Source: Clostridia bacterium
Lineage (GTDB): Bacteria; Bacillota; Clostridia; TANB77; UBA1234
Reading direction: 5' to 3'
NCBI GenBank assembly: GCA_016291695.1
Contig: JAEEYG010000084.1
Location: 1 to 50,765, forward strand
Length of the DNA stretch: 50,765 bases
The number at the start of each line of letters is the position of its first letter. Positions within the stretch are counted from its first letter, which is position 1. This document shows positions 6,474 through 8,257 of this stretch, one piece after another. The notes under the pieces are model-generated. The model saw only the letters and a program-made list of their open reading frames with translations, was not told the DNA's origin and did no database searches. A program made the position numbers and the translations under genes.

Positions 6474-7661
6474 CTATTTCATCTCAATTTTAACGATTTT
6501 CTTTTTACCTTTAGCTACCACAAAAGAGTCCTTTTCAACCGCCATATTAATATCCTCAACCTTTTGCCCGTCTAACGTAATTCCACCTTGCGTAATTAGT
6601 CTTCTGGCTTCTGATTTTGAAGGAGCAATTTCAGAAGCAACCAAAATATCCATGATGTTACGGCTTTCTTTGCTTATTTCAACCGTTGGCATGTTTTCAG
6701 CTAAAAGTTCCCCTGAAAATAGCTTTTCTGATGTTTCCTTAGCCTTTATAGCCTCTTCTTCGCCATGAAGGTATTTTACTACTTCAAAAGCAAGTCTTTT
6801 ACCAGCCTCTCTCTTTTCTGGTTCTGTTTTAACACTTTCTTCTAATTTATCTATTTCCTCTTTAGAAAGGAATGTAAACCTCTTTAAATATGGAATAACC
6901 ATCTCATCTTCAGAATTTAACAAATATTGATACATTTGATATGGACTTGTTTTCTCTTTATCAAGCCATAATGCATTTCCCTCTGATTTTCCAAATTTAA
7001 CACCAGACTTAGTTGTAACTAGTGGCATTGTGAATGCATACGCTTCTTTGCCAGTCACCTTTTTGATTAACTCTACTCCTGAAGTAATGTTTCCCCATTG
7101 ATCTTGGCCAGCAACCTGCATAATACAGTTTTTGTTGTTAAATAACCATAAAAAGTCGTTTGCTTGAAGTAATTGATATGAAAACTCTGCATAAGAAATG
7201 CCTTCTTCTAGTCTTCTCTTAATAATATCTTTGCTTAGCATATATGGAACATTAAAGTACTTTCCTACATCTCTTAAAAAGTCTATCAATGTAATGTTTT
7301 CTGTCCAATCCAAGTTATTTACCATTTCACAATTAGGAAAATACTTTGCAAGCTGGTTCTTAATTCCTTCAACATTCTTAAAAATAGTCTCTTTCTGACT
7401 TGCATCTCTTTCTGTGGTCTCCCTAGGATCCCCAATTAGACCTGTAGCTCCTCCAACTAGTACTATTGGATGGTGTCCATATCTAGCTAGTCTTTCACAA
7501 ATTAAGAAACTAGAAAGATGCCCTAAATGCAAAGAATCTGCAGTCGGGTCAGTTCCAATATAAAAAGTCATTCCACCTTTATTAAGCTTTTCAACAAAAT
7601 CAGGACTATTAGTTTGATCCTTAATTAATTCTCTGTAAATTAAATCTTCATAACAAGTCAT
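6474..7661 (-). CDS. tyrS: Tyrosine--tRNA ligase
   Basis: 395 residues from the ATG at 7661 (MTCYEDLIYREL), behind AGGAGAG. Class I aminoacyl-tRNA synthetase that charges tRNA-Tyr. The HIGH signature is HLGH in DSLHLGHLSSFL, and the KMSKS signature is KFGKS in GVKFGKSEGNALW, which marks the TyrS rather than the TyrZ branch. The Tyr-site region AGQDQWGNI is present. The last 65 or so residues form an S4 RNA-binding domain (SKSEARRLITQGGI). The open frame extends upstream to 7796, but that stretch is the T-box leader: its apparent residues are the antiterminator and terminator sequence, so it should not be included. Expression is expected to rise when tRNA-Tyr is uncharged. Confidence 0.97.
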   Translation of the reverse strand: MTCYEDLIYRELIKDQTNSPDFVEKLNKGGMTFYIGTDPTADSLHLGHLSSFLICERLARYGHHPIVLVGGATGLIGDPRETTERDASQKETIFKNVEGIKNQLAKYFPNCEMVNNLDWTENITLIDFLRDVGKYFNVPYMLSKDIIKRRLEEGISYAEFSYQLLQANDFLWLFNNKNCIMQVAGQDQWGNITSGVELIKKVTGKEAYAFTMPLVTTKSGVKFGKSEGNALWLDKEKTSPYQMYQYLLNSEDEMVIPYLKRFTFLSKEEIDKLEESVKTEPEKREAGKRLAFEVVKYLHGEEEAIKAKETSEKLFSGELLAENMPTVEISKESRNIMDILVASEIAPSKSEARRLITQGGITLDGQKVEDINMAVEKDSFVVAKGKKKIVKIEMK

Positions 7662-7680
7662 AATATTCTCTCCTTCTTCT

Positions 7681-7713
7681 TTTTTCTGCCAAATCGGGGC
7701 AGCCTTTTTTGGC
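7681..7713 (+). repeat. Left arm of 33-bp inverted repeat around the tyrS leader
   Basis: This stretch (start TTTTTCTGCC, end CTTTTTTGGC) matches the reverse complement of 7915-7947 at 29 of 33 positions by eye. It lies in the untranslated leader, between the T-box terminator and the tyrS ribosome binding site. On the minus strand it also takes part in a small local hairpin, GGGG..CGCC / GGC.GCCCC. Confidence 0.85.
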
Positions 7714-7727
7714 GGTCCCCATTTAAC

Positions 7728-7876
7728 AAAAAAAGAGCCATCAAACTCTAGGGACGAAAGCTTTTCGCGGTACCACCCTAGTTTATGATTGCTCATACAC
7801 TCTAATCTAATAGCCTTAACGCGGTTATCAAACGGAGCAAACTCCAGGGGTCGTAAATCCCTATCAACGCTTGTCT
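7728..7876 (-). ncRNA. T-box riboswitch upstream of tyrS
   Basis: Minus-strand leader with the T-box sequence TGGTACCGCG at 7766-7775 inside GGGTGGTACCGCG...CGTCCC, the invariant core that pairs with the tRNA acceptor end. The competing terminator has a long stem from GAGC..ATC...CTAGGG to CCCTAG...GATGGCTC, followed by seven T at 7728-7734. Only about 100 bases separate the predicted start point from the T-box core, so the specifier stem looks short. A TAC triplet (tyrosine) lies in the loop of a small hairpin at 7846-7862, but I cannot prove it is the specifier. Confidence 0.9.
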
Positions 7877-7882
7877 TAGGTG

Positions 7883-7911
7883 ATTATACTAAACCATTGT
7901 TTTTTTGTCAA
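7883..7911 (-). promoter_or_regulatory. tyrS promoter
   Basis: Perfect TTGACA (7906-7911), 17-base spacer and perfect TATAAT (7883-7888) on the minus strand, directly upstream of the T-box leader and directly beside the right arm of the inverted repeat. Confidence 0.92.
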
Positions 7912-7914
7912 ATT

Positions 7915-7947
7915 GCCAAAAAAGGTTGTCCCGATTTGACCGAAAAA
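7915..7947 (-). repeat. Right arm of 33-bp inverted repeat around the tyrS leader
   Basis: Reverse-complement partner of 7681-7713 with four mismatches. It lies just upstream of the tyrS promoter and overlaps the T-run of the terminator of the neighbouring 90-residue gene. The two arms bracket the whole promoter and T-box. Confidence 0.85.
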
Positions 7948-7978
7948 GAGCTCCCCTTCCCGTGCGGAAAGAGGAGCC
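7943..7978 (-). terminator. Terminator of the 90-residue orphan gene
   Basis: Minus-strand stem GCTCCTCTTTCC / GGGAAGGGGAGC with loop GCAC, followed by TTTTT. It starts a few bases after the stop codon at 7985. Confidence 0.9.
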
Positions 7979-7984
7979 TTGTGC

Positions 7985-8257
7985 TCAGCCGATGTAGCGT
8001 TCCCAGCTACACCCGCTTTCTGTCAGCATCAGAACCATTGTGTAGATGCCAGACGCTGTGTTGTGCTTGTTGGTAAACACGCCCTTCTCATAGTACCAAC
8101 CCTTGGGGTGCCTAAGGGCAATGGGTGGATACGCTGTAAAGATGGCAAGATTGCCATCTTCGTCCTTTCGAACCCGGATTTTACCCGGGTTGAGAACACG
8201 GAAAAGCCACAGAACGGCCTTAACAGGCCAGTCAGCTACGCCAACAGACTTTGCCAT
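7985..8257 (-). CDS. Orphan 90-residue protein in a high-GC single-gene unit
   Basis: I do not recognise this protein. It starts MAKSVGVADWPVKAVLWLF, has a mixed basic core (NPGKIRVRKDEDGNLAIF) and ends CSWERYIG. No signal peptide or clear membrane segment; it looks like a small soluble protein, perhaps a single beta-rich domain. It is probably a real gene because it has AAGGAGG six bases before the ATG at 8257, its own 17-spaced promoter and a strong terminator. Base use differs from neighbours: 8041-8100 counts 29 G/C in 60, against 19 in 60 for 9841-9900 in the response regulator. Three other genes here (12023-12499, 31600-32145, 34436-35440) have the same unit structure and composition. 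Acquisition by transfer is inferred. Confidence 0.75.
   Translation of the reverse strand: MAKSVGVADWPVKAVLWLFRVLNPGKIRVRKDEDGNLAIFTAYPPIALRHPKGWYYEKGVFTNKHNTASGIYTMVLMLTESGCSWERYIG

Follow-up and report, generated by a model that had tools for sequence, protein, structure and literature searches.

The two arms of the inverted repeat that brackets the tyrS promoter and T-box leader in the window analyzed here (the whole stretch of 50,765 nucleotides from a Clostridia bacterium) are, with high probability, two inserted copies from a single family of short nonautonomous REP/TIR-like mobile hairpins around an ancestral promoter and T-box, most likely propagated by a RAYT/TIRYT transposase. Two separate hairpin insertions had been one of the options put forward in a sequence-only reading of this DNA, and this option is upheld by dispersed copies in the own genome, by the lack of the arms in congeners and by the association of such repeats with transposase genes elsewhere.

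The inverted repeat at tyrS is made of two hairpin units of different form

A repeat search of the window returned two arms of 33 nt at 7681-7713 and 7915-7947, which are 88% complementary (29/33) and separated by 201 nt. The 33-bp inverted repeat noticed by the sequence-only reading is thus real, and the promoter and the T-box are located between its arms as had been stated, together with the U-tract of the T-box terminator. The locus is organized as follows:

6474..7661, minus strand: tyrS, tyrosyl-tRNA synthetase, 395 aa (PF00579 with E 2.7e-77, PF22421, PF01479)
7679..7734, minus strand: palindromic (dimeric) hairpin copy, located after the T-box terminator and ahead of the tyrS Shine-Dalgarno site
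7688..7713, plus strand: hairpin unit A (left arm), stem GCCAAA/TTTGGC, loop TCGGGGCAGCCTTT, 6/6 stem pairs
7728..7734, minus strand: U-tract of the T-box terminator, read from the sequence, conserved in the congeners
7747..7876, minus strand: tyrS T-box leader (RF00230) with UAC specifier and reduced Stem I, conserved in congeners G001 and G002
7883..7911, minus strand: tyrS promoter TTGACA-17-TATAAT (TTGACA 7906-7911, TATAAT 7883-7888), read from the sequence, conserved in G001 and G002
7915..7940, minus strand: hairpin unit B (right arm), single copy, stem GTCAAA/TTTGGC, loop TCGGGACAACCTTT, 6/6 stem pairs including one G-U
7943..7982, minus strand: intrinsic terminator of the upstream orphan gene, read from the sequence and from a terminator scan; its U-tract adjoins unit B
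7985..8257, minus strand: orphan gene, 90 aa, no Pfam match

The leader matches RF00230 with 61.6 bits (E 3.6e-13), under the gathering score of 93, and has a short Stem I; it contains the T-box sequence AGGGUGGUACCGCG, an antiterminator and, by eye, a UAC specifier fitting tyrS. Stem I is much reduced, 7 bases replacing 74 model positions in the Rfam alignment while the UAC specifier is kept, and the same form is present in both congeners. The T-box terminator (7735-7795, minus strand) seemingly consists of a long stem, GAGCAATCATAAACT/AGAGTTTGATGGCTC, around the antiterminator region, without competing for its 3' strand, and this stem is nearly invariant in the two congeners. On the other side of the locus, the orphan gene is apparently richer in G+C than its surroundings, and G001 alone has a homolog (56%) at this position.

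The core common to both arms occurs exactly twice in the window, against 0.01 times in shuffles. The left arm is one half of the longer palindrome 7679-7734, which accounts for the extra repeats returned by the repeat search (direct repeat 7715-7738 / 7928-7951). At its outer end the right arm takes in AAAAA (7943-7947), which serves the upstream gene as terminator U-tract, and the unit common to both arms is therefore about 26 nt long (7688-7713 and 7915-7940). Units A and B have AAATCGGG and TTTTTTGGC in common, a combination absent from the other copies of the own genome. Unit B is placed upstream of the tyrS -35 box, after the terminator of the upstream gene. The palindrome reuses the U-tract of the T-box terminator in its 5' half and is predicted to fold into a long hairpin in the tyrS leader RNA (86-nt piece, centroid -22.4 kcal/mol, MFE z -3.8), which ends a few nt before the Shine-Dalgarno site and in which the terminator U-tract is paired. 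Neither a target-site duplication nor a precise boundary can be defined for the tyrS copies.

The promoter and T-box leader occur without the arms in relatives

The two congeners, G001 and G002, whose tyrS genes are 92% and 87% identical to that of the window, have neither arm. Their promoter, T-box, terminator and U-tract can be aligned to those of the window, with order and orientation unchanged. The downstream site is empty in both: the Shine-Dalgarno site follows the U-tract at almost no distance, and the roughly 45 nt that the window has in addition at this point correspond to the palindrome. The unit upstream of the -35 box is likewise absent, the spacer having diverged there, so that only the downstream copy has a clean empty site. 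The T-box core and the ATG are separated by 116 nt in the window, as against 69-72 nt in the four closest T-box-bearing relatives, and 80 other tyrS loci, a few of them with little upstream sequence, show no repeat in the 450 bp preceding the gene. Since the congeners and other tyrS loci carry the leader without the arms, the alignments indicate that the leader is ancestral and that the arms are later additions.

The arms belong to a dispersed family of hairpins with covarying stems

The sequence-only reading had proposed to search for the arm elsewhere in the genome and had named a common dispersed hairpin as the outcome that would speak against its cassette. Such is the outcome. In the draft assembly to which the window belongs (1.45 Mb, 145 contigs), the arm sequence has 6 matches at ≤3 mismatches, and the relaxed core CAAAWNGGGACARCCTTTTTNG has 19 matches on eight contigs at the same threshold, against 0 for a reversed-pattern control. 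Many of these copies occur as inverted pairs (C119, C48, C69, and C110), similar in layout to REPIN and TIR dimers. A search of 13 genomes of the family at ≤2 mismatches gave matches in 7 of them (1 to 51 each, the highest counts being 51 in G010 and 27 in G009) and none in the other six, all controls being 0. The dispersal expected of a REP/TIR repeat family is therefore observed, with units found as single copies and as head-to-head dimers. A preference for insertion after intrinsic terminators, which visual inspection of both tyrS sites and of several more had suggested, was rejected: a scan that misses long terminators placed one beside 6 of 52 units, without clear excess over the 6.7% of random intergenic positions.

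The unit is an imperfect hairpin of about 26 nt, with GGGACARCC as loop motif and GNCAAA/TTTGNC as stem. Compensated stem types comprise GCCAAA/TTTGGC, GTCAAA/TTTGAC, GACAAA/TTTGTC, AACAAA/TTTGTT and CACAAA/TTTGTG. Over 62 core matches collected in the own genome and the family, and ignoring kinship among copies, the six flanking bases per side form a mean of 4.10/6 Watson-Crick pairs vs 3.54 (sd 0.10) when re-paired at random, a value reached in 0 of 2000 shuffles; chance core matches in this set weaken rather than create the signal. The stems thus covary, as expected of hairpin-forming repeats of the REP/TIR type.

Related hairpins flank Y1 transposase genes

Y1_Tnp (PF01797) genes of RAYT size are present in 12 of the 13 family genomes. 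Six of them, distributed over four genomes, have inverted GGGACA[A/T]CC hairpins on both sides (G009:C10, G009:C43, G010:C23, G007:C12, G007:C9 and G004:C14), the arrangement of REP/TIR repeats with RAYT/TIRYT transposases. Of the 27 copies in G009, 7 are found no farther than about 0.5 kb from one of the two Y1_Tnp genes of this genome, whereas a few hundredths of one copy would be predicted there from the density. Other Y1_Tnp genes have inverted repeats with GGGGACA[CG] or GGGGACG; the former is found at L133, L134, L136-L139 and L149, and the tyrS variant reads GGGACAACC. No full transposase gene flanked by the exact tyrS variant was found in the own draft assembly, whose two Y1_Tnp genes carry other GGGGAC repeats, and a search of this assembly for a remnant of the cognate transposase with the G009:C43 protein retrieved these two known genes only. 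Among the motif instances beside Y1_Tnp genes, 24 of 63 have an enclosing stem stronger than shuffles at p ≤ 0.05 (about 3 expected); they are spread over 10 genes with different stems, instances within one array not being independent.

The Y1 proteins have an invariant HxH and Tyr and, except for the shortened L151 frame, match PF01797 above the cut-off, so that the HUH motif, the catalytic Tyr and the IS200-like domain of RAYT/TnpA-REP proteins are all found. Their C-terminal matches to HTH_8, HTH_23, HTH_24 and HTH_28 are weak and below cut-offs. A profile built from these proteins had a single match in the PDB, TnpA-REP 4er8 (E 0.0011).

At L136 and L139 (Y1_Tnp of G000:C66 and G001:C74, G000 being the own genome), tandem arrays of repeats of about 35-37 bp with GGGGACACGACA are inverted between the two sides of the gene. 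At G010:C23, the sequence on either side of the Y1_Tnp gene forms a complex array (L144, 903-1100 and 1919-2150) of hairpin units interspersed with CGTCCGTCAAAACG-type repeats.

Discussion

Our preferred scenario is that the hairpin would have been copied or moved in single-stranded form by an HUH-Y1 transposase of the RAYT/TIRYT type (IS200-like), the same hairpins being found on both sides of genes for such enzymes in related genomes. One copy would have landed in the spacer that separates the upstream terminator from the -35 box, the other downstream of the T-box terminator, ahead of the Shine-Dalgarno site. Such an enzyme is the putative agent for the two tyrS copies themselves; the own assembly does have Y1_Tnp genes, but these are associated with other repeat types. 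Because both sites lie in spacers that tolerate insertion, the events were presumably near neutral, and because the units are in opposite orientation they look like the ends of a cassette.

Whether the two copies arose independently deserves consideration. The combination that units A and B share and that is unseen in the other own-genome copies would fit one copy having been derived from the other by a local event, such as short-range transposition or conversion, rather than by two unrelated insertions. However, the nearest other copies differ by a few bases only, and the two tyrS copies differ in form (single versus palindromic) and have opposite orientations; we regard a local copy event as a possibility with some weight, albeit rather unlikely. 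A function of the downstream palindrome is less probable still. Its position just before the Shine-Dalgarno site and its pairing with the terminator U-tract would suit a stabilizer of the tyrS mRNA or a translational modulator recruited from the repeat family, but it is seen in one species only, so there is no conservation to show selection. Irrespective of recruitment, the downstream copy is predicted to fold as a hairpin in the read-through mRNA, immediately before the Shine-Dalgarno site, with a possible small effect on stability or translation.

The long complementarity of the arms, together with the stable leader fold of the downstream copy, could also evoke a cis-acting pair selected to fold together in RNA or DNA, for instance in the regulation of tyrS. 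We consider this very improbable: the right arm is upstream of the -35 box and hence outside the tyrS transcript from that promoter, each arm folds alone, and relatives with the same T-box lack both. Finally, the invertible or mobile regulatory cassette proposed by the sequence-only reading, here a phase switch with the promoter and riboswitch flipped by a recombinase, has a true 29/33 inverted repeat around the promoter and T-box in its favor but can be set aside almost entirely, as the enclosed segment is ancestral and occupies the same place and orientation in arm-less congeners, the arms have many copies elsewhere instead of specifically bounding a switched segment and belong to elements with other boundaries (the palindrome), and a flip would separate the essential gene tyrS from its promoter. 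Nor would inversion point this promoter at the orphan gene as suggested, since this gene is on the minus strand: transcription from the flipped promoter would enter it in antisense at the 3' end, not at its start. A false invertible riboswitch is thereby removed and replaced by REP/TIR-like hairpins landing beside a T-box leader.

Comparison with known systems

Literature searches for T-box leaders interrupted by REP-like repeats and for RAYT in Firmicutes or Clostridia retrieved nothing relevant. The REP/REPIN repeats associated with RAYT (TnpA-REP) resemble the present ones in being short intergenic hairpins, often head-to-head, that flank an HUH-Y1 gene, and the profile match to 4er8 goes in the same direction. 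Nevertheless, the stem is A+T-rich here, and no GTAG/GGAG-type tetranucleotide is found at the stem foot in the listed units. Some family members read CGTCAAAA...TTTTGACG, which recalls the CGTC-tagged REPs (PMC3733652), but CGTC lies within the paired stem instead of forming an unpaired tag, and the repeats flank transposase genes.

A closer parallel is provided by TIRs and TIRtrons with their TIRYT transposases (Di Nocera 2013, PMC3733652), whose genes are associated with the motif GGGGWSAS, and by TnpA-Y1 subclass 2.1, for which a 2018 survey described no REP-like sequences beside the genes and left open the role of their inverted repeats (PMC6006769). With both, the present system shares IS200-like Y1 genes of about 250-290 aa flanked by inverted repeats that are also dispersed singly, as dimers and in clusters. 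The motif of these repeats (here GGGACA or GGGGACA[CG], with GGGGACG at some genes) resembles GGGGWSAS, and the weak C-terminal helix-turn-helix matches below cut-offs may be a further similarity. In contrast to what the survey described for subclass 2.1, each repeat here is a hairpin that carries the motif in its loop, and the stems covary. The tyrS copies, reading GGGACAACC, also depart from the GGGGWSAS motif of TIRYT genes, and the host belongs to a rumen Bacillota lineage. The hairpin form of the repeats may be new for subclass 2.1, if these Y1 proteins belong there. What appears mildly new is that the GGGGACA repeats of these transposases are hairpins whose loop bears the conserved motif and whose stems are specific to the gene. 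It is conceivable, at odds that we place slightly short of even, that in rumen Bacillota every TIRYT (subclass 2.1-like) transposase sustains a family of mobile hairpins of its own, with a common GGGGACA-type loop motif and differing stems; recognition would then read the loop motif and a co-evolving stem, not a tetranucleotide at the stem foot. The present case also points to a Bacillota lineage in which the repeats of TIRYT-type genes resemble true hairpins.
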